Shown here piece after piece: positions 1,855 to 30,771 of a stretch of DNA of 31,152 nucleotides; within the stretch, counting starts at the first letter, position 1; the number at the start of each line of letters is the position of its first letter. Origin of the DNA: a virus; the IMG/VR virus record IMGVR_UViG_3300020000_000175, positions 1-31,152 of that record; one strand, written 5' to 3'. The notes under the pieces were generated by a model. The model searched no databases. It had not been told where the DNA came from and saw nothing but the letters and a program-made list of their open reading frames with translations. The position numbers and the translations under genes were made by a program.

Positions 1855-2220
1855 ATGAGTAACCTAAAAGAAGAAATACTCAATTCATTACGATTACAGG
1901 GTTCGGCTGACGATGATAATAAAGAGATTAATGTTATCATTGCCAGCCGTTCTCACATTAGCACTATTCTAGATTTATCTGGTGGACTGCCCAAGTTCAG
2001 AATGTCTATTGCTAAGAGATTTGATTTCATTACTAAGCAGCCGTTAGCATTAGAGAGTCTTTCACCGTTAGCAATTCGTTGCTGTTTATGCAGTAAAGTA
2101 ATTGGTTATCCAGCATGGTATTATAACGTGAATTACACAATCAATCACTTTCACTACTTCGTTTGTTTTGACACTCATTCACCAATTAAGGTGACTGCTA
2201 GATGCTATAGGAGAGTATGA
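1855..2220 (+). CDS. 121-aa protein with a C-terminal zinc-binding-like motif, unknown function
   Basis: Not recognised. The first half is mixed helical sequence. The second half has CCLC near residues 75-78, followed by HFH and a further Cys within FVCFDTH, which could form a degenerate zinc site. The ATG at 1855 has AGGAG 7 nt upstream. The stop codon overlaps the next start (ATGA), so translation of the two is probably coupled. Confidence 0.7.
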   Translation: MSNLKEEILNSLRLQGSADDDNKEINVIIASRSHISTILDLSGGLPKFRMSIAKRFDFITKQPLALESLSPLAIRCCLCSKVIGYPAWYYNVNYTINHFHYFVCFDTHSPIKVTARCYRRV

Positions 2221-2447
2221 TGATGTATTACGATACAGAGTATGAATCAATGCTTAACGAAGCTAATTATGCAATTCAAATAGCACAGAGAATGCTTAAA
2301 AAGCATGGATATTGGGTAGCAATGTATAACTGTATGACATTAGCAATTCATTGCCGTAAAAAGAGAAATACTGAATGGGATGAAGAAGAATTGATTGCAG
2401 TTACTTTCTGGTGGGGAGTTAGAAATCTGATTTACAAATCACGTTAA
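2217..2447 (+). CDS. small 76-aa hypothetical protein
   Basis: Unknown acidic-aromatic, mostly helical protein starting MMMYYDTEYES. Three ATG codons occur in a row (2217, 2220, 2223). AGGAG at 2209-2213 is better spaced for the second or third than for the first, so the true N-terminus may be one or two residues shorter. The gene overlaps the previous stop codon by four bases and belongs to the same operon. Confidence 0.65.
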   Translation: MMMYYDTEYESMLNEANYAIQIAQRMLKKHGYWVAMYNCMTLAIHCRKKRNTEWDEEELIAVTFWWGVRNLIYKSR

Positions 2448-2735: not shown

Positions 2736-3050
2736 ATGTCTGTATTTCGTAACAGCCCACAGGTGAAGAATGAATCAGGTGAAACTACTATTAAGCGTTA
2801 TGTTCATCAGAAGTTGCATGGTGATCATAATAGCGTCCACTGGCAGATTACAGAAGGTGGAAAGGTTATTTTGAGTAAGGTAGTAGGTAAGGACGAAAAG
2901 ACTGGTGATATTGAATATGATGAGATTGAAATTCCAGCATCTCTCGTATTCAAGCTCGCCAATATGCTGAAGAATACTAGAGAGATTGTTTTCGTTCCAG
3001 TCTCTCAGTTGGCTTCAGTAAAAGATAAGACTTCAGCCGTTGATGAGTAA
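2736..3050 (+). CDS. 104-aa hypothetical protein
   Basis: Not assigned to a family. It has beta-rich central sequence (VHWQITEGGKVILSKVVG, then a DIEYDEIEIP strand) followed by a helix (LVFKLANMLKNT). A single-strand nucleic-acid-binding or adaptor role would fit the position but there is no diagnostic motif. The start at 2736 has AGGAG 7 nt upstream, one of the better ribosome binding sites here. Confidence 0.7.
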   Translation: MSVFRNSPQVKNESGETTIKRYVHQKLHGDHNSVHWQITEGGKVILSKVVGKDEKTGDIEYDEIEIPASLVFKLANMLKNTREIVFVPVSQLASVKDKTSAVDE

Positions 3051-3062: not shown

Positions 3063-3869
3063 ATGTGGCTCTGTAATTGTGGTCTGACTGTTGCAAATGC
3101 TTCTCATTGTCCATTATGCAAGTGCAGCAGTCAGACCATTGAGCCTTTTGAAAGTTATGACGAATTCGATGCACTCATTTTTAAGTGTCGTGATTTTGCA
3201 CTAATTAAAATATTAGGTTATCTAGCCGTTAACACAGTATACGCAATGGAGAATCCAGTGACACCACAAGAAGAACTGTTTAGTAAATTCTTTAATGAAG
3301 AAAGAATGCTCATTAAAGACATGGATATTTTGACGATGAGAGCACATAGAGAAGAAATGGCTCTCATTGCATTTGAAGCAAGAGCTAGATTAACTGCAAT
3401 AGATGAAGATGAACGTGAGCGTAATGCTAAATCCAGAAAAGAAAAAGGCACTACTGGATTTGCACGTTCAGTCAATGATGATGATTTGGCTAGTGAAGCC
3501 ATTAACAAGATTAAAGAAAGAGGTAAGAGATTATCTAAGGTAGAGAAGATGATTGAACAGTTTGTAGGTATGGGATTTGAGCGCAGTGAAGCAGAGAAAT
3601 TGGTATCTGCTAGAACCGTCAAAGACCATCTTGAGAATAAGAGAGATAACTTTAGAGTTGAGGATTTGAAAACGAAACCGGAGTCAGAATCTGAGGATTT
3701 GACATCGGATAAACCTTTTGTTAACCCATTTGACAAAGCAAAGGGAATAGTTCCTGCTTCGCAGGAAGTTCACATTAACGAAGAAACTAACACTGTGATT
3801 ATTACTAAGACTGAAGAAATTAAAGAGGAACCATACAATCCATTTAAGGGTTTGACTAGCAAAGGATAA
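3063..3869 (+). CDS. 268-aa zinc-ribbon and UBA-like protein with NPF motifs
   Basis: The N-terminus carries cysteines at 4, 6, 16, 19 and 21 (CNC, then CPLCKC), a zinc-ribbon arrangement. A long charged helical or coiled-coil middle (about 65-155) leads to a segment at about 157-190 that resembles a UBA/TS-N three-helix fold (KVEKMIEQFVGMGFERSEAE), including the MGF signature loop. The C-terminal 70 residues look disordered and hold two NPF motifs (221-223 and 259-261) near Lys and Gly. Such a layout suggests a scaffold or adaptor that binds another phage or host protein. The NPF tail recalls the one on the RecA-like ATPase at 8310-9212. The function is unknown; the UBA call is by eye and needs a profile search. 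Confidence 0.7.
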   Translation: MWLCNCGLTVANASHCPLCKCSSQTIEPFESYDEFDALIFKCRDFALIKILGYLAVNTVYAMENPVTPQEELFSKFFNEERMLIKDMDILTMRAHREEMALIAFEARARLTAIDEDERERNAKSRKEKGTTGFARSVNDDDLASEAINKIKERGKRLSKVEKMIEQFVGMGFERSEAEKLVSARTVKDHLENKRDNFRVEDLKTKPESESEDLTSDKPFVNPFDKAKGIVPASQEVHINEETNTVIITKTEEIKEEPYNPFKGLTSKG

Positions 3870-3873: not shown

Positions 3874-4161
3874 ATGACTACAACAGTATGTAATACGTTA
3901 AAGCTAAGAAAAATTAATCCTAAAAATAAAAATGAATCCATGGCGTGGGAGGTTCTTGATAAGAAAGAAACTTTCAGATATGGAATCGTTGTCAAACAAT
4001 ATAATGAATATTTCTATATGAAGTTAGCATGGAGAAGTGTAAAACGACACTTTTGGATTTTTTATACGATTGATGGTGATTATATTCTTGGTAAAACGAG
4101 ACTTCAAGCTCTTAAACCATTAATTGATAATCTAGGGAGACTAACAAATGTCTCTAAGTGA
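3874..4161 (+). CDS. 95-aa hypothetical protein
   Basis: Unknown basic protein with an aromatic-rich, beta-like core (FRYGIVVKQYNEYFYMKLAW, then HFWIFYTIDGDYILG). It starts 4 nt after the preceding gene and its 3' end overlaps the SNF2 helicase gene by 14 bases, which suggests translational coupling to the helicase. Confidence 0.65.
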   Translation: MTTTVCNTLKLRKINPKNKNESMAWEVLDKKETFRYGIVVKQYNEYFYMKLAWRSVKRHFWIFYTIDGDYILGKTRLQALKPLIDNLGRLTNVSK

Positions 4162-5749
4162 AATCGTTAAACAAGAATGTCCAGTTTGTAAGAAAGTAGC
4201 CGTTGAGAAGGAAAGTGTAAACTTTGGAAATAAGAAGCTAATCAAACTCGTCTGCGGACATATGATTAGTTTTGAATCACTCATAAGCATCGATGAATCT
4301 GTTTATGAGTCTATAATCTTCAGTGATGGCAAGAGACCTAGGCCATATCAGATTGAAGGAATGAAATTCGTTGAAGAAGCAGGATTTAATTGCATTATAG
4401 CGGATGAGCAAGGTTTAGGTAAGACAATTGAAATAGGTTGTTTACTTAAACTTCATCCAGAAGAATTACTACCATGTGTTATTACTTGCCCAACTACTGT
4501 TAAAAGACAGTGGTTAACTGAACTCATGCGTATCTGTTGTCCTAACGGAACGCAAGAGGAGCGAAAGAAATATCTCACACAAGTTATTCAGTCTGGTAAA
4601 GAGAAAGCAATACCAGGCTTTCAGATTTACATTGTCACATTCGACATGCTCAAGAAAGAAGATTTATTTGAGTATGTTCCAGATATTAAGTTGATCGTAG
4701 TTGATGAGTGTCAGAGAATTAAGAATCATCTCAGTGACAGAGCTAAAGCCGTTCAGAAGATAGCTAAGAAGTGTGAATACCATATCCCAATGTCAGGGAC
4801 TATAATCCTGAACAATTCGGGAGAAGCATTCACAATTCTGAATCTAGTTAAGCCTACGAGATTTCCACAATATCAACGCTATCTTGAAACGTATTGTGAT
4901 ATATATGAATCAGCATGGGGATACAAAGTAGGTGGATTAAAAGATAGAGAGAGATTCCATGAAGATACAAGAGATATACTGATTAGAAGAACTAAAGATC
5001 AAGTTCTCAAGGATTTGCCGGCTAAAGATAGAAAGTTCTATCACGTCGATTTAGACCCAAGATTCAACAAGGCATATGGCAAAGCTCTAGAAGAACTAGA
5101 TGAACTCTTTTATGATGACGACATGTCAGCATTTGAGAAGGGTTCTAGCACTATCGCCATTATGTCAAAGTTAAGACATATCACTGGATTAAGTAAGGTA
5201 GAAGAATGTATTGACTTTACAACAGAGTTCTTGCTATCAACTCAACGTAAGATTACAATCTTCAGCCATCATAAGGATGTGGCTGACTTATTAGTAATGA
5301 AACTTAATGAGTATCTAGAACCAATAGGTCTTGAGAAGGTAATTCATCTTAGTGCTGAGTTAGATGGAAATGGAAGGGCTAATGCTGTAGAAAAGTTTAA
5401 GACTAATGATAAATGTAGAGTAATGGTTGCATCAACTCTAGCAGCAGGTGAAGGTATTAACCTTCAATTCTGTTCTGATGCAATAATGCTAGAGAGACAA
5501 TGGAATCCAGGTAAAGAAGTTCAGGCCGAAGATAGATTTCATAGATTTGGACAGCTCAATCCGGTAAGTATTACGTATATCATAGCTATTGGAACAATAG
5601 ATGAATATTTCACTGAGCTAGTAGAACAGAAGCGAGCCATTGTATCTGCAACGATAGATAATGTAGATATTGAATGGCAGGAACAGAATTTGATGAAAGA
5701 GCTTACAACGATGCTCTTGACTAAAGGACGTGAGAGATGGAGACTTTAG
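4148..5749 (+). CDS. SNF2-family DNA helicase/translocase with N-terminal zinc ribbon
   Basis: A 533-aa superfamily 2 ATPase that tracks along double-stranded DNA using ATP. Motif I is DEQGLGKT (about 86-93), motif II DECQ (186-189) followed by RIKN, motif III MSGT (215-218), and motif VI QAEDRFHRFGQ (459-469) with its arginine fingers. The order and the RxHRxGQ-type motif VI are characteristic of SNF2 proteins. Residues 11-38 contain CPVC and CGH, a small zinc ribbon that could contact DNA or a partner. Phage SNF2 proteins usually accompany replication and recombination genes, as here. The start at 4148 has GGGAG 7 nt upstream. The gene overlaps both neighbours, so it is embedded in the operon. 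The length suits a minimal SNF2 core without accessory domains. Confidence 0.93.
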   Translation: MSLSEIVKQECPVCKKVAVEKESVNFGNKKLIKLVCGHMISFESLISIDESVYESIIFSDGKRPRPYQIEGMKFVEEAGFNCIIADEQGLGKTIEIGCLLKLHPEELLPCVITCPTTVKRQWLTELMRICCPNGTQEERKKYLTQVIQSGKEKAIPGFQIYIVTFDMLKKEDLFEYVPDIKLIVVDECQRIKNHLSDRAKAVQKIAKKCEYHIPMSGTIILNNSGEAFTILNLVKPTRFPQYQRYLETYCDIYESAWGYKVGGLKDRERFHEDTRDILIRRTKDQVLKDLPAKDRKFYHVDLDPRFNKAYGKALEELDELFYDDDMSAFEKGSSTIAIMSKLRHITGLSKVEECIDFTTEFLLSTQRKITIFSHHKDVADLLVMKLNEYLEPIGLEKVIHLSAELDGNGRANAVEKFKTNDKCRVMVASTLAAGEGINLQFCSDAIMLERQWNPGKEVQAEDRFHRFGQLNPVSITYIIAIGTIDEYFTELVEQKRAIVSATIDNVDIEWQEQNLMKELTTMLLTKGRERWRL

Positions 5750-6358: not shown

Positions 6359-6516
6359 CTATTGAAGAACTTATCAAAAAATTAGAAGATGCTGAGAATG
6401 ATTGTGATGAGGATTGGGAAAGAGTTCATAGTAGACAGGATGATGCTCTATTAGATTATATTAATGACGATAAAGTAACAGAAATTTTCAATCGAACTCC
6501 TAAATGGTATGCCTAA
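6355..6516 (+). CDS. 53-aa acidic hypothetical protein
   Basis: A very acidic small protein (first half rich in Glu and Asp, e.g. KKLEDAENDCDEDWE), ending FNRTPKWYA. It starts with an ATGA overlap on the ribbon-helix-helix gene. No family is recognised; a DNA-mimic or antagonist role is a possibility that composition alone cannot show. Confidence 0.6.
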   Translation: MTIEELIKKLEDAENDCDEDWERVHSRQDDALLDYINDDKVTEIFNRTPKWYA

Positions 6517-6518
6517 TC

Positions 6519-7448
6519 ATGACTGAAGAACTCGATAAAGGAATTCTCATAGAGACTGCTACTGATAAGAAGGTAAATATAGTTCTAGACATGAGTCAGT
6601 TTGACCTATTTGAGCTATGCCAATATAGATATAATGTAAGACATAATCTCCTTAAAGCTCCGCCAAAGAAAGCAGAAGCACTAGATAAAGGTTCATTAGC
6701 TCATGAAGGATTAGATGTTTATTTTAATCTACTGAAGAAAGGTATTCCATTTCAAGATAGAATGCATGAAGCTATCAAACATATTCAAGCATTAGCAGCA
6801 GACCCAGATCAATCCCATCTAGAACCTGAAGATGTAGCTGTATTGATTTCAGCCGTTGAGCAATCATGCGATTACTGGCGCTTTGAAGATGAGCAAATGA
6901 TAATCCATGAAATTGAGCAGGCTTTCGCTTTCATTCTATTCGAAGATGAATTCATACGTATCATTATAACGGGTAAGATAGATTTACTAGTAGACATTCC
7001 ATCAATTGGCCGAAACTCAGGCTATAGCAATCTTCCAATCGACCACAAGACTTATCAGAGAGACTATCCACTTGGAGAGTTGAGTAATCAGTTTACATGC
7101 TACACATATGCAGTCAAATCGAATTACATAATCATTAACCGAATTGGTCTGCAAAAGACAGTCAAGCCTGAAGATAAATTCAAAAGAATTCCCTTATCAT
7201 ATGACCCAATTAAGAAGCAACAGTGGGCAGATAATGTTAAGGATGTAATTATTGATGAGTATCTTCAGTGCGTAGCAACTGGTAGATGGAAGATGAACTT
7301 TACTAGTTGCGATAAGTTCAATCGTAAGTGTGAGTATTATGAAGTCTGTAATAGTTCCGGTATTGAAGCCAAGATGTATAAATTAGACAGCCAATTCGCA
7401 ACGGTTAGTCCGTGGGATGTAACGGCTAAGTTCTCAAAGAACTCATAA
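6519..7448 (+). CDS. Cas4/RecB-like PD-(D/E)XK exonuclease with predicted 4Fe-4S cluster
   Basis: The 309-aa protein has the landmarks of the PD-(D/E)XK nuclease superfamily: a GSLAHEGLD motif with His62, a GKID motif with Asp155, IDHK with Asp175 and Lys177 as the catalytic D-x-K, and QFTCY (Q191) as the QxxxY motif. Cys34 in FELCQYRY and three C-terminal cysteines (264, 271 and 277, in CDKFNRKCEYYEVC) match the one-plus-three cysteine layout that binds an Fe-S cluster in Cas4 and AddB-type proteins. No CRISPR array is present, so a role in resecting DNA ends for phage recombination, alongside the RecA-like ATPase and ssDNA-binding protein, is likely. The start at 6519 lies 2 nt after the previous stop; a ribosome binding site is weak and coupling probable. 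Confidence 0.85.
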   Translation: MTEELDKGILIETATDKKVNIVLDMSQFDLFELCQYRYNVRHNLLKAPPKKAEALDKGSLAHEGLDVYFNLLKKGIPFQDRMHEAIKHIQALAADPDQSHLEPEDVAVLISAVEQSCDYWRFEDEQMIIHEIEQAFAFILFEDEFIRIIITGKIDLLVDIPSIGRNSGYSNLPIDHKTYQRDYPLGELSNQFTCYTYAVKSNYIIINRIGLQKTVKPEDKFKRIPLSYDPIKKQQWADNVKDVIIDEYLQCVATGRWKMNFTSCDKFNRKCEYYEVCNSSGIEAKMYKLDSQFATVSPWDVTAKFSKNS

Positions 7449-8140: not shown

Positions 8141-8313
8141 CAAGAGATGAACTGCTAATTGAAATGAAAATTACAGCTGACACTTATTCATCTAGTGAAG
8201 ATAAATACGTTAGAGAGATGTGCCGATTTATTATGTTCTGTTTGAATAATACTCTTATTACTCAGCATATTAAGGATGCATTACCAGAGGAACTAGAGGA
8301 TAAGAAATCATGA
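8137..8313 (+). CDS. 58-aa hypothetical protein
   Basis: Small helical, acidic protein (MTRDELLIEMKIT... ending EELEDKKS). It is linked by ATGA overlaps to both the upstream zinc protein and the downstream RecA-like ATPase, so it is almost certainly translated. No family is recognised. Confidence 0.65.
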   Translation: MTRDELLIEMKITADTYSSSEDKYVREMCRFIMFCLNNTLITQHIKDALPEELEDKKS

Positions 8314-9212
8314 AAGCCAGTGACCTACAAATCGACGCTTATACATCTATATTAATGAAGTCTCCTCCAGGATTTGGTAAGACATTAGCAGCATTATCTT
8401 TTGCATTAGAAGGACCAGTGCATGTTAGTTACTTTGATAAGAAGAAGCCAGTAGAGCTATTAACTTATTTCACTGAAAAGAGATTTGGAGCTAAGGCTAA
8501 GACTATCATTGATAATATTGAATATGATGTATATGGTGCTCACAATGCACATGAATATCTTAATAAGATGATAGCATTGAACGAAGATTGTAGATACTTT
8601 GCAGTGATTACAGATAGTGTTACGAATCTTACTGCGTCAGCGGTTAACTGGTCATTAGGTTGGAGAGATCCTAAGAAAGGTAAGAAAGATAAACTTAATA
8701 AAGATGCTCCTGCTATGATTCCTGATTGGGATGAATATAAGGTTGAGACTTCTTTAGTTTCGCAAGCTCTAGATTTACAGAAGTCTTTACCATGCCATGT
8801 TATCTGGACAGCGCACCCATTACCATCAATCAAAATTGAGGGCAGCGGTGCCAGCCAGAAAGTTACTAAAACGAACCCAATTGTTACGTATGGTAGTAAA
8901 GTAGCTGGTATGATTCCAGGTAGCTTTACTGAAATCTATCATCTTAGTCAGGTAGGTAATTGGGGAGCTGAAGGTGGTAGCAAAAAGAAATTCATTTGTA
9001 ATCTTGAAGCTATTGGAGATGAGTTTGCAAAGTCTCCATTAATGGGTACATATTATAAGGAATTAGATTTTACGGATAGGTTGTTCTATGAGGTTTGGAA
9101 GGAGGCGTTAGATGACGTAGCTAGAAGATCAAAGGAGGAAGTGGAATCCACAATAGAAACTACTATTAATCCATCCACAACTGAAAACAACCCATTTGCA
9201 AAGCGTTGGTAA
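8310..9212 (+). CDS. RecA-like AAA ATPase, Sak4-type recombinase
   Basis: The 300-aa protein is a single P-loop ATPase. Walker A is SPPGFGKT (18-25), Walker B a hydrophobic strand ending in Asp102 (FAVITDS), and a later strand HVIWTAHP (163-170) resembles the sensor region of RecA-fold proteins. This matches phage AAA_24/Sak4-type ATPases, which act as single-strand annealing or strand-exchange factors together with a phage ssDNA-binding protein. Such a protein is encoded two genes downstream. The C-terminal 30 residues look disordered and end NPFAKRW, which may be a short peptide that docks to a partner, echoing NPF motifs in the protein at 3063-3869. The ATG overlaps the previous stop. Confidence 0.85.
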   Translation: MKASDLQIDAYTSILMKSPPGFGKTLAALSFALEGPVHVSYFDKKKPVELLTYFTEKRFGAKAKTIIDNIEYDVYGAHNAHEYLNKMIALNEDCRYFAVITDSVTNLTASAVNWSLGWRDPKKGKKDKLNKDAPAMIPDWDEYKVETSLVSQALDLQKSLPCHVIWTAHPLPSIKIEGSGASQKVTKTNPIVTYGSKVAGMIPGSFTEIYHLSQVGNWGAEGGSKKKFICNLEAIGDEFAKSPLMGTYYKELDFTDRLFYEVWKEALDDVARRSKEEVESTIETTINPSTTENNPFAKRW

Positions 9213-9218: not shown

Positions 9219-9422
9219 ATGGAATACTCTACTGGAGCTAATCAGATTGAGCCATATGATTCTCCTAAGATGGTTAGAATGCCAACCATGAAGGAGAGAT
9301 TAGAGCTAGCCGTTAAGGAAGCTGAAGAAAAATTAGCTAACGCTAAGGAGGCTAGAGCATTATTCGATAAGAATCCTGATTTGGAAAGGCTATTAGACTT
9401 ACTTCAACGTAGTAATTTCTAA
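9219..9422 (+). CDS. 67-aa coiled-coil protein
   Basis: After a short flexible N-terminus, residues 24-60 form a clear heptad-like coiled coil (MKERLELAVKEAEEKLANAK onward) ending in a leucine-rich segment (LERLLDLLQRS). A TTG at 9216 also precedes the ATG at 9219. Similar small coiled-coil proteins often neighbour phage recombination ATPases; its partner may be that ATPase. No enzymatic motif is visible. Confidence 0.7.
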   Translation: MEYSTGANQIEPYDSPKMVRMPTMKERLELAVKEAEEKLANAKEARALFDKNPDLERLLDLLQRSNF

Positions 9423-9547: not shown

Positions 9548-9928
9548 ATGAAACAATTCCTCACACCGGACGATCTCAAGAAGGGTGATCTAGCAGAACC
9601 TGGTTGGTATCCTGCTGAGATTACTGATTACAACGAGAAGAATGCAGATACAGATAGCTCCACTAATTGTATCTTCACCTTTAAGGTCTTGGATGGTCCG
9701 TCTAAGGGTATTTCCCCAAATAAGCTGTTTAATGAGAAGGCTCTAGGGTTTGGTAAGAATCTCTGGAAGACCCTTGGCTTTCCATTCGATCCTGTTAAGG
9801 GTTATGAGCTGAGTACTGATCTATTTAGAAAGACTATTGGATATAAACTTGAGGTATATATTAAGCGTGGTAAATCCAATAAGGGCAATGAATTCAACGA
9901 CATCGCTGACTTCAGGCCGTTGAAGTAG
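9548..9928 (+). CDS. single-stranded DNA-binding protein, DUF669-like
   Basis: A 126-aa protein with the pattern of DUF669-type phage ssDNA-binding proteins: PGWYPAEITDY near the N-terminus (a first OB-fold strand), a central FTFKVLDGPSKG, then a late basic segment KLEVYIKRGKSNKG leading to FNDIADFRPLK. It would coat single-stranded DNA in replication and recombination and probably works with the RecA-like ATPase upstream and the polymerase downstream. The codons are G/C-richer than the neighbours, as expected for an abundant protein. A gap with a possible promoter lies before it and a hairpin terminator after it, so it may be expressed at higher level than the rest of the operon. Confidence 0.75.
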   Translation: MKQFLTPDDLKKGDLAEPGWYPAEITDYNEKNADTDSSTNCIFTFKVLDGPSKGISPNKLFNEKALGFGKNLWKTLGFPFDPVKGYELSTDLFRKTIGYKLEVYIKRGKSNKGNEFNDIADFRPLK

Positions 9929-9991: not shown

Positions 9992-10264
9992 ATGAGTCAT
10001 CTCTTAAGCAAACCGAAATGGATACGTCGAGCCGTTGAGACACATAATTGGCATGTAAATAAAGTAAAGGATGATGATGGATGGACTATATCAGATACTG
10101 CTAGAGTGTTAAAGAGATCCTATGGTAGCGTGAATGAAGATTTACTAATAGCTGACTGGTATGAGTCACACGAAGAAATAATATCCAAGTTTAGACATGC
10201 TAATCAGGCATTGAATTACATTAGACTCCAGAAAAAGAAGATTGAATCTAGACTCATAGACTAA
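9992..10264 (+). CDS. 90-aa helix-turn-helix protein
   Basis: Residues about 27-60 (GWTISDTARVLKRSYGSVNE and following helix) look like a helix-turn-helix: ISDTARVL as the first helix, SYGSVNEDLL as the recognition helix. The N-terminal SKPKWIRRAV segment is basic. I chose the ATG at 9992, which has AGGG 5 nt upstream; an earlier in-frame ATG at 9941 falls inside the terminator hairpin. It probably binds DNA or recruits the polymerase, whose gene overlaps its stop codon by one base. A role as regulator or replication accessory protein is inferred. Confidence 0.65.
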   Translation: MSHLLSKPKWIRRAVETHNWHVNKVKDDDGWTISDTARVLKRSYGSVNEDLLIADWYESHEEIISKFRHANQALNYIRLQKKKIESRLID

Positions 10265-12765
10265 TGCCTAACTACGTGCCAGGAGTTGGTTCTCTAGCTC
10301 CAAGATTAATGATTGTAGGAGAAGCTCCAGGTGCTCAGGAAGATGCTCAGAAACTTCCAATGGTTGGACCAACTGGTGAAATTGTTAATGATTTATTGTT
10401 TAAGTGTGGAGTACATAGGAGTGAAGTATACATCACTAACGTAGTCAAGTTTAGACCACCTATGAATGATTGGGATAAGCTACATCTTATTGGAGTAGAT
10501 GTTAAGCAATCAACTGAGGAACTTTGGGAGAATGAGATTAAAAGACTTCAGCCAAACTGTATACTTGCAGTTGGTAACAAAGCCCTTAACGCTATTTGCG
10601 GTGTCGATGGAATACTTAATTATCGGGGTAGTATACTCAGTGCCGTTGATGGTATTACTAAATGCATACCGACGATACATCCGGCAGCGTTATTTAGTCG
10701 TTCTACAGGCGAAGATGAAAACAAAGGTGGACTCGAATGGACGTGGATTAAATTAATAGAAGCAGATTTCCAGAGAGCCGTTGATGAATCACTTAATCCC
10801 AAAATTGAGTTACCAGATAGGAACCTAACCGTAGCACATAACTCTTTAGACGTGCATCGTTTCTTTAGGGAGTATGAACACCTTGATAAATCTGCAATGG
10901 ATATTGAGTCTATTAATTGTGTTCCTGTCTGTATTGGATTCGCTTTTACCAGACAGCATGCTATCTCGATACCGTTGCTACGTAAGATTGGTCCTCATTA
11001 TGTTACTGATATGGGTGATAATGAGATGGACGATATATATAAGATAGTCTATGAGAAATTAGCAACGCTTAAACTTGTTGGACACAATCTTAAGTATGAT
11101 GAATTCAAATTAACATTGATGGGATTCGGCGACCGGAAATTTAGAACTATGAATGTTTATTCTGATACATTAATTAAAACCCGTGTCATATTTCCTGAGA
11201 TGCCGAAGAAACGGCTGAATGATGTTAGCAGTCTTTGGACTAGAGAGCCTTATTACAAGGAAGAAGGAAAAGAATTCAAGTTAGGAAAATTCAAACCCGA
11301 ACAGCTTCTATTGTACAACGCCAAGGATTGTGCAGTTGAGATAGAAGTCGATGAGGAACAAGAGAATGACCTCATTCAATTGGGTAATTCTTACGGAGTC
11401 CCACTAGTAGACTATTATTATAATTACATGATGAAGAAACATAAGTTCTATCTACGTATGGAGAATGTAGGATTTGAGACTGATCATGCTAGGCAATTAG
11501 AATTACGTAAGAAATATACAGTGATGCAGGCTGAAGTTCATGCTCGATTAGTAGAACAAGTAGGACGAGAGATTAATGTAAAGAGCTATCCTGATATGTT
11601 CACCTTGTTGTATAAAGAAATGAAGTTCAAAGTTCTAAAACGTAACCCAACTGCTGAGGAATCAATCGTAAGGTTGATGTCTAATCATGCCAAGAAAAAA
11701 GGACAAAAAGAAATACTCACAGACGTTCTCGAAGAAAGACGAATTAGAGATCAGAAGTCGAGATATATTAATTTCCAGCCTGATTACGACGGAACTTGCA
11801 AAACGTCCTACAATATCTCAGCTACTGAAACGTGTAGAAGCTCAACTTCCATTCTCAAGAAGCCAGTTAGACCGAAAAAAATTGGACTTGCTTTTCACAC
11901 TATCTCAGCGCACGGCAGACTTGCGAAAGATATTAAATCAATGTTACGACCAAGAAAGGGTAAAGTATTTGTTAAAGCCGACGCTTCCCAAGCGGAAGCA
12001 AGAATAGTAATGGTTCTAGCTAAGCAGTATGATATACTTGAAGTAATAGATAAGATTGATATACATCGCAGGACGGCTGCTTTAATTCTTGGTATGACTA
12101 GAGAGTTAGATTTACGTCCAGTCTTTATACCAGTGATAGATGAGCTGGGCAAAGACAGCCCGGAAAGATTTTGTGGTAAAAAGACTAGACATGCAGGTAA
12201 CTATCAAATGGGCAAAGGTAGATTCATGTTAGAATTTAACACCGATGCTCAGAAGTTTGAGATAGATATTAACATTAGTGAGTGGAAAGCAGGCGAAATG
12301 ATTCGCTTGTTCCGCGAAGCTGATAGTAGATTGGAGAGTAACTTCTGGAATGACATTACCGAAGCAATCAAATCCACTCGTTGTCTTATTGATCCGTATG
12401 GTGGTATTCGTATTTTTAATGGTCGTATGGATGACGAATTGTTCAAAGAAGGTTATGCGAATATTCCGCAAAGGACGGTTAGTCATCTTGTCCAAGGTGC
12501 TGGATTAAAGATAGAAGAAGAATTAAACAACGATGATGATGGCCAATTCATTGGAGAGAAACACGATGAATTAATAATGGAAGTACCTGAGAATAATTGG
12601 GAGCCATATGCTCAGCTTCTAAAGAAGTATATGGAAGTGCCAATTGATTTCAGCCGTTACTGCTCCATTAAACGTGATTACATTTTAACAATTCCATGTG
12701 ACGTTGAGATTAGTAATACTCATTATGGTGATTTCCAGAAAGTAAAGTTAGAGAAAGTCGCATGA
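10264..12765 (+). CDS. fusion of uracil-DNA glycosylase-like domain and family A DNA polymerase
   Basis: This 833-aa protein is probably the phage replicative polymerase. Residues 1-170 form a family 4/5-like uracil-DNA glycosylase domain (GEAPGAQED at 19-27, NVVKFRPP at 59-66, HPAA at 139-142). The usual Fe-S cysteine in K-C-R-P-P is Phe here. A 3'-5' exonuclease follows: ExoI D213/E215 (AMDIES), ExoII N275/D279, ExoIII Y351/D355 (YNAKD). The polymerase domain has a TxTxR-like TETCR (521-525), motif A DASQAEAR (573-580), motif B around KKTRHAGNYQMGKG (639-652) and motif C KHDE (766-769). Motif B lacks the standard Lys and Tyr-Gly of Pol I (see findings). No 5' nuclease domain is present. The start ATG overlaps the previous stop by one base. 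Confidence 0.92.
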   Translation: MPNYVPGVGSLAPRLMIVGEAPGAQEDAQKLPMVGPTGEIVNDLLFKCGVHRSEVYITNVVKFRPPMNDWDKLHLIGVDVKQSTEELWENEIKRLQPNCILAVGNKALNAICGVDGILNYRGSILSAVDGITKCIPTIHPAALFSRSTGEDENKGGLEWTWIKLIEADFQRAVDESLNPKIELPDRNLTVAHNSLDVHRFFREYEHLDKSAMDIESINCVPVCIGFAFTRQHAISIPLLRKIGPHYVTDMGDNEMDDIYKIVYEKLATLKLVGHNLKYDEFKLTLMGFGDRKFRTMNVYSDTLIKTRVIFPEMPKKRLNDVSSLWTREPYYKEEGKEFKLGKFKPEQLLLYNAKDCAVEIEVDEEQENDLIQLGNSYGVPLVDYYYNYMMKKHKFYLRMENVGFETDHARQLELRKKYTVMQAEVHARLVEQVGREINVKSYPDMFTLLYKEMKFKVLKRNPTAEESIVRLMSNHAKKKGQKEILTDVLEERRIRDQKSRYINFQPDYDGTCKTSYNISATETCRSSTSILKKPVRPKKIGLAFHTISAHGRLAKDIKSMLRPRKGKVFVKADASQAEARIVMVLAKQYDILEVIDKIDIHRRTAALILGMTRELDLRPVFIPVIDELGKDSPERFCGKKTRHAGNYQMGKGRFMLEFNTDAQKFEIDINISEWKAGEMIRLFREADSRLESNFWNDITEAIKSTRCLIDPYGGIRIFNGRMDDELFKEGYANIPQRTVSHLVQGAGLKIEEELNNDDDGQFIGEKHDELIMEVPENNWEPYAQLLKKYMEVPIDFSRYCSIKRDYILTIPCDVEISNTHYGDFQKVKLEKVA

Positions 12766-14591: not shown

Positions 14592-14681
14592 GCCACCTTG
14601 GCGAAATTGGCAAACGCGAAGGACTTAAAATCCTTTTCTGGCAAACCCAGATTGTCGGTTCGATTCCGACAGGTGGCACCA
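14592..14681 (+). tRNA. tRNA-Leu, anticodon UAA
   Basis: Acceptor arms GCCACCT/AGGTGGC pair fully, discriminator A is followed by an encoded CCA. The anticodon stem AAGGA/TCCTT holds loop CTTAAAA (anticodon TAA). A long variable arm CTGG/CCAG and T-arm GTCGG/CCGAC with TTCGATT complete a class II leucine tRNA that reads UUA and UUG. Confidence 0.95.
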
Positions 14682-14700
14682 TTTTAATTTGAGGTCTTTT

Positions 14701-15060: not shown

Positions 15061-15067
15061 AGCAAAG

Positions 15068-15155: not shown

Positions 15156-15160
15156 AAATT

Positions 15161-15328: not shown

Positions 15329-15337
15329 TAATCAAAC

Positions 15338-15412: not shown

Positions 15413-15433
15413 CTAATTTTGGAGAAGAAAGAA

Positions 15434-19109: not shown

Positions 19110-20665
19110 TGATCTATCCTCCATCCCTTTGCTTTTGCTTCTTCAGGAGTAGCCCAACCACCTCCCTGTGGAGTAGTAACATGAACTAAACCAGGTTTGG
19201 GTGGATTACCATATTTACTAGGAATTTCTCTTTCAGTAATAGTAGCAGTTTGTCCTTTACCACCAATTGGAATAACTGATTTCTTAGCATAGATAGCATC
19301 TTGCATCTTCTTGTATTCATCTTCAGTTGGACCAAATATCAAACCAGGCTTTTCAATATCTACCATTCCAGTTTTCTTATCAACAGTAATATAGCTTCTT
19401 AACTTAGGATTATCAGCCTTGAATTGTTCAGCGGCAGTAGCATAATTTAATTTCCTATTAGCAGCAGATTCTTGACTAGCACTCTTAGGTTGAACAGTAG
19501 CTACAGGTTTTTGAGTTTCACCAGGCTTAGGAGCATTAGGCTTTTCAACTGTAGCAGGAGTAAATTCTTTATTATCAAGATCAAGAGTTCCTTCAATAGT
19601 CTTAGATGGATCTTCAGGATCTTGAATAGATGCTTTAACTACTCTATTTCTCTTAGCCTTTTCAGTTGCTGTAGTCTTAGCAGTAGCAACAGCAGAAGCC
19701 TTCTCAACTGCATACTTCTGCTTTTCTTCAGCACTCATGAAGGTAGCATCAACAGGTATCTTAGAACCATCCTTAAAATAGAATGCAGCTTGACCAGAAT
19801 CATCAACCTTAAATACACCACCTTTAGCTACAGCCTGAGATATCTTTAATTTCTCCTCAAATTCATGTTGTTTCTCAGCGAATCTACGTTCACTAAGATC
19901 CATCCTCTGGCCAAATTCGCCTTTTAATTCAGTATCTCTATTTTGTAATCTATCGAGTCTCTTATTAGCCATATCCTGAGTCATAACACCACTAGCAATT
20001 TGTCTCATATTAACATTATTACCACGTTCAGCATTAGCAGCCGCTAGTGTAGGTTGAATTTGATTCTTCCAATCCTCCAATGATCTATGATAACCTGGGT
20101 CCATAGCTTCTTCAGCTAATCTTGGACCACCAAAGAAACCTAAAAAGCTAGCACCTAATTTACGTCCAAATCCAGCATGATGTCTCTGAGGATAACTAGA
20201 TAACATAGCATCTAGTCTATCTTGTGCAGCATGTTCAGGCTTATATAATGACATGAATTGATCATATTCATTTTGTATATTATTATCACGAGCATTACCA
20301 GCTAAATCTAATTGAGGTATTGAATTCTCAAATCCAGGCTGATCAACTTGTGGACTCTGTTGACCACCGATATCACCTATAAAATTAGGAGAATTATAAT
20401 CTTCAATAGGCGGAACTACTACAGGAGGAGCAGGAGTAGAAGAATCTAAACCTGAATCCATACTTAACGGCTGATAGCTATTACCAAACAAACCACCAGT
20501 ATCAGGCATGTCCATACCAAATGATGTAGGATCATTAATATCTGGCATATTCATACTACCAGTAATACCACCCTGTTCAGGTAAATCATTACCCACAGGC
20601 TGATTAGGATCAAATAATCCGCCAAAAATATTACGTAGATGCAAGAGATCAAGTAATCCAGGCAT
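19106..20665 (-). CDS. 519-aa low-complexity/coiled-coil virion protein
   Basis: Residues 1-140 are disordered, rich in Gly, Pro, Asp and Asn. A helical region follows, including a coiled-coil segment (MDLSERRFAEKQHEFEEKLK) at about 256-275. The C-terminal part is Lys/Pro/Gln rich, with the compact ending GGGWATPEEAKAKGWRIDQ. It lies in the same stretch as three other large proteins of similar style and is a candidate internal virion protein. No enzymatic motif was recognised. Confidence 0.65.
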   Translation of the reverse strand: MPGLLDLLHLRNIFGGLFDPNQPVGNDLPEQGGITGSMNMPDINDPTSFGMDMPDTGGLFGNSYQPLSMDSGLDSSTPAPPVVVPPIEDYNSPNFIGDIGGQQSPQVDQPGFENSIPQLDLAGNARDNNIQNEYDQFMSLYKPEHAAQDRLDAMLSSYPQRHHAGFGRKLGASFLGFFGGPRLAEEAMDPGYHRSLEDWKNQIQPTLAAANAERGNNVNMRQIASGVMTQDMANKRLDRLQNRDTELKGEFGQRMDLSERRFAEKQHEFEEKLKISQAVAKGGVFKVDDSGQAAFYFKDGSKIPVDATFMSAEEKQKYAVEKASAVATAKTTATEKAKRNRVVKASIQDPEDPSKTIEGTLDLDNKEFTPATVEKPNAPKPGETQKPVATVQPKSASQESAANRKLNYATAAEQFKADNPKLRSYITVDKKTGMVDIEKPGLIFGPTEDEYKKMQDAIYAKKSVIPIGGKGQTATITEREIPSKYGNPPKPGLVHVTTPQGGGWATPEEAKAKGWRIDQ

Positions 20666-21933: not shown

Positions 21934-22286
21934 TATTTTCTACCACCATGCTCTATAGAAAAGTGATTGCCATCTTTCTTCTTAAAGCGACCACCCCAAC
22001 AACAATTAATGTTATCTAAACTTAATGATTCCCAGGCTTGTCCCAATAATAAGTAATCTTCAGTAGCCGTTAAGAAGTGACCATCTTTGAATAGATTCAA
22101 ATCAATAGCTAGCCGTTGAGTATGAAGTGATGACTTGATCCCAAGTCCTAATTTAGCAAGACGTTCTGCTTCTTCAGGAGATCTCCAGGCTTCCCCTAAA
22201 GTTATTTCAAATCCTAATTCTTCAGCTTTCTTAAACAGAGAAATTAATAAGAAAGCAAAGATTGATTGTTTCTCCCTAAGAGTCAT
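21933..22286 (-). CDS. M15-family peptidoglycan peptidase (endolysin or virion lysin)
   Basis: The 117-aa enzyme has the VanY/M15 metallopeptidase pattern: GEAWRSPEEAERL near residues 31-43, SLHTQRLAIDLNLF (53-66) with zinc ligands His55 and Asp62, and CWGGRFKKKDGNHFSIEH with His108 and His113. These enzymes cut the peptide stems of peptidoglycan as L-Ala-D-Glu or D-Ala endopeptidases or carboxypeptidases. There is no signal peptide or binding domain, so it acts either as a holin-dependent endolysin or as a virion-associated lysin. Location between the GNAT gene and the candidate internal proteins is compatible with both. It overlaps both neighbours. Confidence 0.85.
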   Translation of the reverse strand: MTLREKQSIFAFLLISLFKKAEELGFEITLGEAWRSPEEAERLAKLGLGIKSSLHTQRLAIDLNLFKDGHFLTATEDYLLLGQAWESLSLDNINCCWGGRFKKKDGNHFSIEHGGRK

Positions 22287-22663: not shown

Positions 22664-24102
22664 TATTGTATCTCCAATCCTAATGCAGTAAAGGCTGTCA
22701 TTCCAGTAGTACTCTTACATCGTATTACATCATTAGATGACATTGTAACACCAATAGTCGCAACGAAGGTTGAGTGTGGTGCTAATTCATAATTATAATA
22801 TTGATATTGCTTAGGATTATCGGCTGCTCCAGATTGAGCTATTGATATACTAATATAATCTACATATGGTCCTGTATTACAGACTGTGATAGAGCTACTA
22901 ACCACAGTCTTACCAGGAGGTGCTGTATAAACCGCAGTTAAAGTATTAGGTAATGGTTGATTTTGACCTAATATTTTACTAGTATCAGTTCCACTACCAA
23001 TGCCATCATCTAGACCAGAAACATTAATAGCAATTAATGGTAAATGAGCACCACTTGTTTCTACAAATGCTCCAACTTGATTAGTTCTTCCAGCCATTTT
23101 CAGGCTAGGTAACGGCTGAATACCTTTAACTATTTCTGCTGTTGCATTAGATGTTAAAGCTGCATAATTCCAGTTGATATTATTCACAGTAGTTGGTCTT
23201 ACTGCAATTCCATATGTAGTTCCTGATACTAGAGTGATAGGAGGTATTTTATAAAAATGTGGAGCACCCGCTGCTACTACTCCAGAAACTACATCAGGAT
23301 CTGGCACAATTGTAGCAATAACAGTAGGAGTTCCATAAGGATCGCTATATAAAATTACTTCAAAATTATCAGTAGTGGCAATTCCAGAAATTGAAGGTGC
23401 TATATATGACACCTGCATAGTATAATTAGGAGTAAAAGTTCCAATATATTCATCAGGAGATGAACCTGAATTAAAAGAGATAGTACTAACACCCGCTGAC
23501 CATGAAATAGGATTAGTTGATACAATCCATCCTAAAGTTCCGTCATCAAATACTATAATTGCATAAACAAATGTTGTATTAGATTTGGTTAATACTCCAG
23601 TATTGGTAGTTCCATAAGGAAATCCAAGATTTGCGTCCGTTAACATTATATGATTACTTTGACAACCATTAATAGCTACGCTATCAGCTCCAGCTCTGGC
23701 TGGCATTGTAATTACTATTGCTATTAAATCTCCATCTGATAATGTTTTATTACCAGTATCCATAACTGCTAAATTTAGTGCATTAGCTGTTATGATATCA
23801 GTTCCAGCAACATATTCTTTACGAACATCATAGGTTAAATCTTCTAATCCAGTTGCTAAATCAACATCCTGAATACCAATCCTTAAAGTAGTTCCAACAG
23901 CAACAAACGTAGTACCTAGTGGATACCATAAAATCTTACCAAGACCAGCACTAATAACTTTGTTAGAGCCGTTACCCTGTATGACTACTTGACCTATAAC
24001 AGCACCGCTTCTACCAGCAGCATTTATTGTAACGACAGTAATATCGTTAGCATAAAATGGCTCAGAAGTTAATATTAAGTTATTTATATTTTGAATAGCC
24101 AT
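22663..24102 (-). CDS. 479-aa beta-rich virion protein with C-terminal domain shared with the 110-aa protein
   Basis: The protein is almost all beta sheet with many Thr, Ser, Val and Gly and no charged clusters, as in tail fibre or head decoration proteins. The C-terminal ~104 residues (about 376-479) align without gaps with the complete 110-aa protein encoded at 25360-25692, roughly 40% identical by eye, with shared GQ.P, CN..PY, GAAD..KQY.YY, TFV.T and D-V-x-R-C positions. This suggests a repeated oligomerisation or attachment module. The first 370 residues hold two or three other beta domains, unassigned. The start overlaps the preceding gap by few bases. Confidence 0.65.
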   Translation of the reverse strand: MAIQNINNLILTSEPFYANDITVVTINAAGRSGAVIGQVVIQGNGSNKVISAGLGKILWYPLGTTFVAVGTTLRIGIQDVDLATGLEDLTYDVRKEYVAGTDIITANALNLAVMDTGNKTLSDGDLIAIVITMPARAGADSVAINGCQSNHIMLTDANLGFPYGTTNTGVLTKSNTTFVYAIIVFDDGTLGWIVSTNPISWSAGVSTISFNSGSSPDEYIGTFTPNYTMQVSYIAPSISGIATTDNFEVILYSDPYGTPTVIATIVPDPDVVSGVVAAGAPHFYKIPPITLVSGTTYGIAVRPTTVNNINWNYAALTSNATAEIVKGIQPLPSLKMAGRTNQVGAFVETSGAHLPLIAINVSGLDDGIGSGTDTSKILGQNQPLPNTLTAVYTAPPGKTVVSSSITVCNTGPYVDYISISIAQSGAADNPKQYQYYNYELAPHSTFVATIGVTMSSNDVIRCKSTTGMTAFTALGLEIQ

Positions 24103-24494: not shown

Positions 24495-25160
24495 CTATAT
24501 TACAGGAGGCAAGAGAGCTTCATGCCACCTGAAACCAATTTGAATTGATGATGCAGTAGCTGCACCTGCTAGGGCCGTTAATGATAATTGACCCTTTGGA
24601 GGAATAATAATCAATCCTTTAAGATCCACATCAGTGATTGTACCAACTTGTAATGTATTAGCAGGAGCAGCTACAGTTCCTATAGGCATCCAGTTAGCTG
24701 CTATTCCATCTACTGCTCCAAGAGTAATACCTACTGCAACACGACCAGCACCGCGATATGGTAAATTACCACGTAAAGGTCTTGGAGTAATTGTATTAGC
24801 AATTGCAGTAGGAATCTGAGCCTGAGATACGTTAGCTAAAATTCCCATAGCTTGAATTGCTGCTGTAACTACAACTTGAACTACCCAAACTGAATCAATA
24901 ATATAAGACTTACCATTATCTGGTTCACCATTCCATAATGCAATTAATGCAGCCGTTGTTGGAATAGCTACAACAGGAGCAGCAGCAGTAGTTGTTCCAG
25001 CCCAATATGAATTACCAGAATTAACAAGCTGAGCTAAGAGAGGTAACCCATTAGCAACTATTTGTTCGCCACGATTATTTAATTGTGGCTGTTCGTCCGT
25101 TCCCTCAGCATAGTTTGGTTGCTGCGAACCTCTGACAGCAGCCAAGATTTTTGTCATCAT
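24495..25160 (-). CDS. 221-aa virion protein
   Basis: Beta-rich with many Ala, Val, Ile and Thr; the middle holds repeated strand-like runs (PVVAIPTTAALIALWNG; SVWVVQVVVTAAIQAM). The C-terminal segment GLIIIPPKGQLSLTALAGA followed by FRWHE is compact. I cannot name it; it is likely a structural component such as a head or tail accessory. The first codons are ATGATG, so the start may be one codon later. Confidence 0.6.
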   Translation of the reverse strand: MMTKILAAVRGSQQPNYAEGTDEQPQLNNRGEQIVANGLPLLAQLVNSGNSYWAGTTTAAAPVVAIPTTAALIALWNGEPDNGKSYIIDSVWVVQVVVTAAIQAMGILANVSQAQIPTAIANTITPRPLRGNLPYRGAGRVAVGITLGAVDGIAANWMPIGTVAAPANTLQVGTITDVDLKGLIIIPPKGQLSLTALAGAATASSIQIGFRWHEALLPPVI

Positions 25161-25692: not shown

Positions 25693-26849
25693 TATCCACC
25701 CATTAATGCAAACTGTCTAGCTAATCCTGGTGGTACTGCAACTACTTTGCCGGGAGGTCCAGGAATATAAGATTCTTCTCCATCAATACCATCTAAAACT
25801 ATAAAACTAGTTCCACTACCACTACCTGAACCTGCTGGACCTTGCGGTCCTGTTGCACCTGTAGCACCTGGTATTGGTGGTTCTGGATCTATTACATCTC
25901 CTAAATCTATAAGTAACATTAATCCTGATGCTCCTGTTGCACCTTGAGCACCATCAGCACCTCTTATTCCAGGAATAGGTATTTCAGCATCAGGAATATC
26001 TACATCTAAAAATATAGCTGGACCTGTTGGTCCTTGTGCTCCAGTTAATCCATCAGTTCCTTTTATACCAGGAATAGGAAATCCATCTTCACCATCTATA
26101 GGATCTAAGAAAATACCTACTGCACCTTGACTACCTGTATCACCTTTATCACCTTTAGAACCAGGTAATCCTGGTATTGGTAATTCAGGTTCAAGAACAT
26201 CTAATTCTAAATAAACTGCTGGTCCTACAGGTCCTTGGCTACCTGTTAAACCAGTATCACCTTTAGCACCAGGTATAGGAGAATCTGATTCAAGTACCTC
26301 TGGTTCTAAATAAACCATTGGTCCTTGAATGCCTTGTGGTCCTTGTGGACCTGTACTACCAACACCAGAACTTGAAAGCATCATCATTGGTTCATCATTA
26401 TCAATATCTCCTAATATTGTTAAAAATGCTCCAGATGAAGAACCTCCATCAGTGATACCTGTTACATTAACAGTTCTCTTATGAATTACTGTATCATCAA
26501 ATGATACGTTAGTACCTGGTAATAATTCTCTAGATGATGGAAGTCCAGCAGATTCATCTGTAGCCGTTAAGAAAGTAGCATCCTTGAAAAGCTCATTAAT
26601 AATGCTAACACTGGAAGTGAATCCATTAATTACAACTGAAATAGCAGTAAATTGACTTACTGTTAAATCTTTATTTTGTTGAGCATTCTTAAGTAACTGA
26701 TTGATAACTTGGTAAAGTGCATTGTTTTTAGTTTGTATACCAGAATCATTTAATATTTTGAATAATGGTCTAAAATCTATTTGTTCTCCAATAGGGCCAA
26801 GCCACTTCTTATTAGTATCTGGTAGACCATCATCCCATTTCTTAGCCAT
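25692..26849 (-). CDS. 385-aa fibre protein with interrupted collagen-like repeats
   Basis: Residues 1-135 form a globular N-terminal part, presumably for attachment. From about 160 to 365 runs of Gly-X-Y (e.g. STGPQGPQGIQGP, PGLPGSKGDKGDTGS) alternate with six acidic-hydrophobic inserts ending PIPG or YIPG (about 178-193, 212-227, 246-261, 279-294, 310-328 and 348-364), a period of 32-37 residues. The repeats would form a segmented trimeric stalk. The last 20 residues (VAVPPGLARQFALMGG) may cap the tip. A tail or head fibre is likely, extending toward the LamG-like or beta-domain proteins in adjacent genes. Confidence 0.8.
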   Translation of the reverse strand: MAKKWDDGLPDTNKKWLGPIGEQIDFRPLFKILNDSGIQTKNNALYQVINQLLKNAQQNKDLTVSQFTAISVVINGFTSSVSIINELFKDATFLTATDESAGLPSSRELLPGTNVSFDDTVIHKRTVNVTGITDGGSSSGAFLTILGDIDNDEPMMMLSSSGVGSTGPQGPQGIQGPMVYLEPEVLESDSPIPGAKGDTGLTGSQGPVGPAVYLELDVLEPELPIPGLPGSKGDKGDTGSQGAVGIFLDPIDGEDGFPIPGIKGTDGLTGAQGPTGPAIFLDVDIPDAEIPIPGIRGADGAQGATGASGLMLLIDLGDVIDPEPPIPGATGATGPQGPAGSGSGSGTSFIVLDGIDGEESYIPGPPGKVVAVPPGLARQFALMGG

Positions 26850-28888: not shown

Positions 28889-30771
28889 TATGTGTATGTC
28901 CCAATTGCCAAAACATCTGTTTGGATAAGAGCAATTGTAATAGGAGAAATATCAAATGTCCATTTAGACCATTTAATAGTTTTCCAATTCAGACCCCAGC
29001 GGTAATCTCCCATTAATATCATCTGTTGGGCTGGAATAGCAAAATATATTTTCTGGTTAAGGGAATCATTCAGAAGTTGAAATTGTACAAATTGATTTCT
29101 GTCAATTGCGAGCCAAAGATCTTGAATCTTCCAGGTAAGCTCAGGACGACTATATGCTCCGTTAAAAATAAATATGCCAGAATAATCAGCAATAAGAAGA
29201 AAATCAATATTAACTCCACCAGAATCCAAGACTGTACCAATACCATGAACAGATGCTCCAACACCCTGGTCTAATATTGTTAATTGCCAAGTAGATGGAA
29301 CATCATTATTATCAATTATTGCAGCCGTTCGAGTCTTTTTGTACAAATATAAAACATCTCGATACTCCTGTGCATTTGTAACTGGTAATCCATCCAATGG
29401 AAAGATAATAATTCCATCAACCTGGTCGAACGCTTCTGGTTCGCCGACGGCTGATAAATAAGCCAAGCTAATATCATTAAAGGTAGTTGTAAGAACCATC
29501 CTACCATGATAAGTATTAAGAGTGACACCAGCAGGAATTTCGCTAAAATTGTCGATAAGATGACTAGCATCTTCAAGAAGATCTGCATCATAAAATGAGA
29601 TTTCTTTGGATGTATCAGTATTGTTTTCTAGAGTTCCTTCTGGAACAAAGAAATACTGGTAAGCAGTTTGATCACCATTGTAATTAGCAATGGCTTTGGT
29701 TGCTACGAGATGACGCTTCGTAACAAAAGAATCTGGCGAAACGGGAATATTAGTTACATTAATACTCTTTAATATATCAACCACGTTAACAGACGCCGCT
29801 ACCTCTGGTCCTAATGCTGTAAGATATCCTGTATCTGTCTCATAAACCACCATAATAAGGTGGAATCCAAGATCAGCAAATCCTTTATTAGCTGTATTCT
29901 TAGCAAGTAATCCAGTTACAGTTGGAATCGCACCTAAAGCTAAAGGTGTGACTAGAGCAGAATCAGGTACATTAGTTCTAATATAATCATCAGTATTATT
30001 TGGGATAGTAACTGCTTCATAATAAGTATAAGATGATTGATCTGATGTATATACAGATGGATCAATCGCGTGAGTCATTCCTATTACACGAGAGACAGTT
30101 CCTAATGGACCGACTGGTACTTCAATATTCTCTATCTGTTTACCACCAGGAGCATAGATAACAGGAAATACTTCGATTGCTAATGTATCACCTAATCCGC
30201 CTCTATATATAACAGTTACTAAATGGACTCCTTTGTCAACGACTCCATCAAATGCAGAGTTAAAGGATTTGAAATTCTGATTATCAACCGTAGTAGCATT
30301 AGATGGAGGAAATCCAGCAGCTTTTCTCGCGTTTGTTCCATCTCCTTTGTATACATAAACAAATTCATTTTCTAATCCTTTTTGATAATGTTCTCCATTC
30401 AATGTAATAAATGTTTGGAAAGGAGTAATATAAGCTCTACCATTGTATGACTGAAATCCAAAATCAGTCATTTTTGCAATGGTTAATAATGGACCATATA
30501 CTGTATTGCTACCATCTAATAATGCATGAAAAATTTGTCCTAATGTATTAAGAATCAGCAATCCTTCAACAGTTTGAGTCTTATAATCATACATTCTAAC
30601 TACTTTACCAACAGCTAATAATATATCTAATCCGGGTCTAGTCTCATATCCACCTTCCACGTATGCGACATTATTACAATCAGAAAAATGATCTAATGGA
30701 CAAGAATCATCTGGACCTCTTTTCCAGAGGCCATTAAATTCTTCAATTAAGAGTGCGCCGTGGGATCTCAT
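28888..30771 (-). CDS. 627-aa tail nozzle or tail-tube-like protein (gp12-type)
   Basis: The N-terminal pattern FNGLWKRGPDD ... CNNVAYVEGGYETRPGLD (about 13-47) matches the start of phage tail nozzle/tail tubular proteins of the T7 gp12 kind, where short N-terminal strands end in a G-x-x-x-RPG segment. The remainder is mostly beta (repeated GFxSYNGRAYITPF, YxxNEFVYVYKG), compatible with a propeller or multi-ring tail component. No peptidase motif is present. In podoviruses such a protein closes the tail. It is the first large late protein in this window and is preceded by a small gene overlapping by one base. Alternative: a tail hub or adaptor. Confidence 0.5.
   Translation of the reverse strand: MRSHGALLIEEFNGLWKRGPDDSCPLDHFSDCNNVAYVEGGYETRPGLDILLAVGKVVRMYDYKTQTVEGLLILNTLGQIFHALLDGSNTVYGPLLTIAKMTDFGFQSYNGRAYITPFQTFITLNGEHYQKGLENEFVYVYKGDGTNARKAAGFPPSNATTVDNQNFKSFNSAFDGVVDKGVHLVTVIYRGGLGDTLAIEVFPVIYAPGGKQIENIEVPVGPLGTVSRVIGMTHAIDPSVYTSDQSSYTYYEAVTIPNNTDDYIRTNVPDSALVTPLALGAIPTVTGLLAKNTANKGFADLGFHLIMVVYETDTGYLTALGPEVAASVNVVDILKSINVTNIPVSPDSFVTKRHLVATKAIANYNGDQTAYQYFFVPEGTLENNTDTSKEISFYDADLLEDASHLIDNFSEIPAGVTLNTYHGRMVLTTTFNDISLAYLSAVGEPEAFDQVDGIIIFPLDGLPVTNAQEYRDVLYLYKKTRTAAIIDNNDVPSTWQLTILDQGVGASVHGIGTVLDSGGVNIDFLLIADYSGIFIFNGAYSRPELTWKIQDLWLAIDRNQFVQFQLLNDSLNQKIYFAIPAQQMILMGDYRWGLNWKTIKWSKWTFDISPITIALIQTDVLAIGTYT

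Follow-up and report, generated by a model that had tools for sequence, protein, structure and literature searches.

The window, as we call the whole 31,152-nucleotide stretch analyzed here, is an IMG/VR contig of a tailed soil phage with a G+C content of 37.5%; given that its longest relatives are mostly 44 to 50 kb in size, it is considered a fragment of a genome. The mechanically called genes form two blocks, of which the one on the plus strand encompasses the replication genes, namely those for a SNF2-family helicase (4148-5749; PF00176, phrog_62), a PD-(D/E)XK exonuclease (6504-7448; PF12705, phrog_1218), a Sak4-like single-strand annealing ATPase (8310-9212; phrog_124, with a match to Pfam AAA_24 below the cut-off of that model), a DUF669 protein (9548-9928; PF05037), a family A DNA polymerase with a fused N-terminal uracil-DNA glycosylase domain, both recognized by Pfam (UDG-PolA; 10264-12765), and a DUF3987 protein (12767-14017; Pfam and predicted fold). 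The minus-strand block contains genes for tail and virion proteins, among them a collagen-like tail fibre and an M15 peptidase, and between the two blocks lie two tRNA-Leu(TAA) genes and one tRNA-Met gene on the plus strand (14592-15413). Capsid and terminase genes, which are common to the relatives of this phage, are absent from the contig, and an 8 kb stretch of the window showed no similarity to named phages at the DNA level. The DUF3987 protein is annotated as a primase, but neither the Pfam scan nor the comparison of the predicted structure recognized a primase domain in it. Its predicted fold (mean confidence 88) consists of an AAA+ domain and a C-terminal winged helix and has MCM helicases as the best matches among solved structures; the prediction thus likens its fold to the ATPase and winged-helix region of these helicases.

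The heptamer AGCCGTT is scattered over both gene blocks. It is present on the plus strand in 21 copies (1945-1951, 2039-2045, 3035-3041, 3224-3230, 4198-4204, 4747-4753, 6851-6857, 9308-9314, 10030-10036, 10776-10782, 12652-12658, 16100-16106, which is antisense to a structural gene, 16124-16130, 17187-17193, 17897-17903, 22065-22071, 22111-22117, 23967-23973, 24951-24957, 26562-26568, and 29323-29329) and in the opposite orientation, on the minus strand, in five (7421-7427, 11210-11216, 17711-17717, 20466-20472, and 23111-23117), exactly as counted in the original prediction, which gave 21 copies and about five complements. The reversed pattern, taken as a control, occurs once on the plus strand and never on the minus strand. 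With 26 AGCCGTT against two AGCCGCT on both strands together, the window uses the former variant nearly exclusively. Its copies fall into all three reading phases, with a preference for phase 2, and are located in the plus-strand replication genes as well as antisense to the minus-strand structural genes, so that the described spread over both blocks and several frames is borne out.

The expectation of about one copy per strand, which had been estimated roughly, is matched by Markov models of orders 0 to 2, with 0.8 to 1.3 copies on the plus strand; for the window, 0.8, 1.3, and 3.9 copies are expected under orders 1, 2, and 3, respectively, and AGCCGTT is the top heptamer under all three. Shuffling of synonymous codons within genes gave means of 2.5 copies on the plus strand and 0.9 on the minus strand, and maxima of 8 and 4 in 500 shuffles, versus the observed 21 and 5; for the 26 copies pooled, the Poisson p value relative to the codon-shuffle expectation is below 1e-14. 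Because these expectations contain the codons of the motif itself, the enrichment is, if anything, underestimated. Given that the shuffles remain far below the observed count and that the copies occur in all phases and in both gene directions, the over-representation of AGCCGTT in the window is confirmed as real and as going beyond codon usage. That the excess merely stems from composition, preferred codons or recurrent protein motifs could be suspected from the depletion of CpG, for which GCCG is the preferred context, and from the favoured phase 2, but this explanation is hardly credible considering that codon-preserving shuffles yield about one eighth of the observed count, that copies exist in all phases, in both senses and also between genes, and that homologous capsid genes paired with another replication module lack the word. 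Codon preference, composition and gene direction are ruled out as causes by the Markov and codon-shuffle tests in the window and in its relatives, and the proposed action at the DNA level, in the sense that neither codon usage nor the direction of genes accounts for the word, stands. A literature search for AGCCGTT gave no relevant match among the hits listed.

Scans with the polymerase alignment and with the capsid alignment yielded 79 and 80 viral loci, respectively, and 47 further records were read whole. The genomes that carry the same replication module as the window, hereinafter clade A, number 28 with the window included and have polymerases at least 57% identical. The motif, which the original prediction proposed to look for in related phages, recurs here: in 27 of the 28 genomes, which are not independent of one another, AGCCGYT is enriched approximately 3- to 13-fold over the codon shuffle (most of the genomes were assessed from the per-genome table and the remainder from pooled and per-genome counts). 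When only coding sequences are considered, the ratio of observed to expected AGCCGTT is 8.1 on the plus strand and 6.7 on the minus strand for plus-strand genes, and 6.4 and 4.0, respectively, for minus-strand genes; the coding-only enrichment of AGCCGCT is similar, resulting in an overall 4- to 8-fold excess of both words, on either strand and irrespective of gene direction. Words with one mismatch are mostly near or below expectation, with exceptions at positions 6 and 7, and AGCCGCA, AGCCGTC and AGCCGGT are also enriched, albeit to a lesser degree. The mix of variants differs within the clade, from the almost pure AGCCGTT of the window to the mixed forms of G032, with 76% polymerase identity, and other relatives. 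The word is also present in G056, a record from which the polymerase region is missing. The word is not obligatory for the clade A module given that G036 (L277, L278), which possesses this module with the DUF3987 gene cut by the contig end, is enriched neither for AGCCGYT nor strongly for any other word.

The flanks of the heptamer had been proposed to extend it to YAGCCGTTRA, which is roughly right for the window; across the family, the form is AGCCGYT followed by a base other than T, any base, and a base other than A. The extension is confined to the 3' side (no T at position 8; any base but A at position 10; a weak preference for C or G at position 13), and AGCCGYT, being asymmetric with a one-sided extension, is not a palindrome. 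In alignments of relatives, the rate at which AGCCGYT sites are retained is about 2.4 times that of control words containing CpG; turnover is nevertheless fast, with just 41% of the sites kept at more than 80% identity, and changes are most common at position 4, which in the preferred phase is the wobble C of GCC. The gaps between copies fit random placement, with no regular (Okazaki-like) spacing, only 0 to 3 neighbouring copies per genome are less than 30 bp apart, and about 8% of the copies are intergenic, which is near the share of non-coding sequence. The requirement is for many copies somewhere in the genome and not for copies at fixed places.

The support for the strand polarity on which the original prediction placed its emphasis is weak in the window. 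The 21 plus-strand copies out of 26 correspond to p values from 0.04 (genome-pooled shuffle) to 0.27 (within-gene shuffle), and to p = 0.008 when compared with the window's words that differ by one mismatch (45:35). Since the shuffle already predicts 63 to 73% of the copies on the plus strand, the observed ratio says little about a strand effect beyond codon usage. Other words of the window are as strongly biased, for example CATTAGC (18:2) and AGTTCCA (15:2). A side observation is that AGTTCC is enriched over codon shuffles both in the window and in genomes of clade B1, one of the groups with a different replication module. Polarity is pronounced in the two closest relatives, G032 and G029 (55:14, p = 2e-5, without the window; 78:20, p = 7e-7, with the window included), and in G010 (64:14, p = 2e-7). 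By contrast, none of ten other relatives tested singly departs from the expected ratio, and in several relatives with another replication module the respective enriched words are about equally represented on both strands. Accordingly, a single orientation read by a moving machine does not hold up as a general property, and polarity is a trait of the window's closest lineage and of some others, such as G010, and does not define the phenomenon.

A strictly oriented signal serving a directional machine, such as a series of primase start sites or a packaging signal, would fit the ratios in the window (21:5), its two closest relatives and G010, as well as the excess of AGCCGTT on the polymerase strand, which extends over most of the genome with balance in some stretches. 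It appears very unlikely in view of the ten singly tested relatives without a significant orientation bias, the absence of a recognized primase domain and the random spacing of the sites. Specifically, a primase site is unlikely because no primase domain is recognized and many genomes are not polarized; the consistent lagging-strand polarity expected of primase initiation sites is not seen in those ten relatives, and the reading of the heptamer as a primase start site loses its candidate enzyme, the annotated primase being predicted to be an MCM-like AAA+ helicase. Nor does AGCCGTT show, along the genome, the flip at an origin or terminus that was to be looked for and that characterizes KOPS-type signals.

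Phages with a capsid of the same family but with polymerases 32 to 44% identical lack the AGCCGYT word and often over-use other words, CGCG- or GCGC-based: CGCGCGC in G044 and G051, CGCGCC in G052, CCTCGCG in G049 and G055, GCGCCGG in G018, and CAGCGCR in G037. No strong word was detected in G043, G046, G025, G028, and G040 (the last without the polymerase region), and no word of comparable strength was found in five named outgroup phages (polymerase distantly related in four, terminase related in one). Several words enriched in other clades (CGCGCG, GGCGCC) are full or near palindromes and hence have no orientation. Across genomes, the Mantel correlation of the usage of CG-containing six-mers is 0.80 with polymerase divergence and 0.17 with capsid protein divergence, with p = 0.002 at 500 permutations; the partial Mantel coefficients are 0.79 and −0.09, respectively, and those computed from structural genes alone are 0.76 and 0.13. 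The same partition is apparent in every homologous gene tested, structural or replicative, where clade A has 8 to 13 AGCCGYT per 10 kb against 0 to 3.4 in clade B1, and B1 has 9 to 43 CGCG against 2 to 11 in A. Given that other classes of words also track the polymerase, albeit more weakly (r of 0.5 to 0.6), part of the correlation reflects a general genome signature. Word usage tracks the replication module and not the capsid, even inside the capsid genes.

This distribution can be compared with that of several known short words. Chi sites are typically GC-rich 5- to 8-mers, and it is conceivable, although we are inclined to doubt it, that AGCCGYT is a Chi-like site of the host, at which a helicase-nuclease of the RecBCD or AddAB type stops degrading linear or rolling-circle phage DNA, the dialects differing with the hosts of the different replication modules. 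The polarity in the window's lineage and in G010 would suit rolling-circle tails, and the word is over-represented in the phages beyond composition, as expected of Chi. Chi is known to accumulate in phages that leave the host nuclease unblocked; in those lacking nuclease inhibitors, the Chi of Escherichia coli is over-represented, with a median observed to expected ratio of 2.3 in lambdoid phages (PMC3784561). Like Chi, AGCCGYT is a short, GC-rich, asymmetric word that is spread genome-wide and enriched in phages requiring concatemers; unlike Chi, which reaches 0.2 per kb in recombinase-lacking lambdoids, it attains approximately 1 per kb (PMC3784561). Further differences from Chi are that the AGCCGYT dialect shifts between close relatives, as in the nearly pure window and the mixed G032, that the word occupies both strands in most genomes, and that several of the words over-used by other clades are unoriented. 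Neither 118 Bacteroidota genomes nor two metagenome-assembled genomes holding related contigs display a comparable enrichment, although these may not be hosts. The search for a host with the polymerase alignment gave no match among species genomes, and the capsid alignment led to two metagenome bins of doubtful assignment, one match being a contig in a Bacteroidetes bin. Most capsid genes are preceded by Shine-Dalgarno-like sequences, which speak against a Bacteroidota host.

The second alternative dispenses with a reader altogether: biased mismatch repair or errors of UDG-PolA might create and keep a functionless word. Uniform density in all genes and random spacing are expected of mutation linked to replication, and the high turnover of sites and the correlation with polymerase divergence point in the same direction. 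A mismatch-repair ratchet with switching words has been proposed for the HIP sequences of cyanobacteria (PMC4390886), and HIP1 and its alternatives resemble AGCCGYT in being genome-wide words at about 1 per kb, the identity of which switches between lineages (PMC4390886). However, AGCCGYT differs from HIP1 in being non-palindromic and carried by virus genomes, a ratchet would need the context of seven letters when most one-letter neighbours of the word are not strongly depleted, and the HIP model requires a matching methyltransferase. Pfam scans of the window recognized no methyltransferase, and a signature scan of the genomes detected none that they have in common. On balance, this mutational origin is unlikely.

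These genomes also bear restriction-like marks. In the window, TTTAAA and CTCTTC are absent (29 and 21 expected, respectively) and CAGCTG occurs once (17 expected), and in some B1 relatives GATC and GTAC are reduced to 0.03 to 0.2 of the expectation; such strong avoidance is a restriction-like signature. Synonymous escape from an avoided site was rejected as the main cause of the word: CAGCTG, GATC and GTAC are strongly avoided in this test, but AGCT is not, AGCTGTT is only slightly below expectation (0.79), and none of the B1 words neighbours an avoided one. In phage T7, the sites of the type III restriction enzyme EcoP15 are all in one absolute orientation, which is explained by escape from restriction. 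AGCCGTT shares with these sites an orientation bias across a phage genome that is independent of gene direction, but unlike them is in excess and occurs in both orientations, with five inverse copies in the window. DNA uptake sequences (DUS/USS) are short words that have a stable core and dialects differing between lineages, and in having lineage dialects AGCCGYT is similar; unlike DUS/USS, it is not concentrated in intergenic inverted pairs and is present in phages without a recognized integrase. Neither inverted pairs at terminators between genes nor an intergenic excess, the hallmarks of uptake sequences, were apparent from the close neighbours and intergenic copies counted above.

Taken together, these observations tentatively point to AGCCGTT being the window's dialect of a distributed recognition word at the DNA level, with the family form AGCCGYT and its weak 3' extension. 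Under this scenario, a putative trans-acting, sequence-reading factor that handles replicating or recombining phage DNA would maintain the word genome-wide, and what this factor reads would be inherited with the replication module (UDG-PolA, the SNF2 and MCM-like helicases, the exonuclease and Sak4). We infer from the sequence comparisons that the word has a protein reader, that it persists through selection and not through biased mutation, and that it serves the processing or protection of ends, recombination or replication of phage DNA. The involvement of a factor co-inherited with the module is favoured given that the dialect shifts among close relatives, that it is not shared within the capsid family, and that the word is long and specific. 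Host range may itself travel with the replication module, in which case a host factor would produce the same correlation.

The protein encoded at 3063-3869 on the plus strand of the window is present in 26 of 27 clade A genomes and in none of 19 others, and in most of its members contains a variable N-terminal RanBP2-like zinc finger. A role of this protein as the only reader is not supported, given that the finger was not found in the motif-bearing G012, G022 and G032. A different protein with finger-like cysteine pairs is encoded in B1 genomes (e.g., 615-1358 in G042).

Over-represented words of this kind (Chi, uptake sequences, HIP1) have been described chiefly in cellular genomes and in phages using the same word as their host, and the forces behind some of them are disputed. 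Here, in a large family of soil viruses, the word differs by lineage, pervades all genes and goes with the replication module instead of the capsid, and such a family makes the choice between selection by a reader and mutation by a writer testable by comparison. A more far-reaching and, in our opinion, doubtful possibility is that a factor encoded in the module reads the word of the lineage as a self-identity code, so that the replication or recombination machinery would distinguish its DNA from host DNA or the DNA of other phages, and capsid genes meeting a new module would be rewritten into the new dialect. If a viral protein indeed reads the word, this would amount to sequence-based self-marking of viral DNA; if the host reads it, the dialect could help to trace uncultured phages to their hosts.
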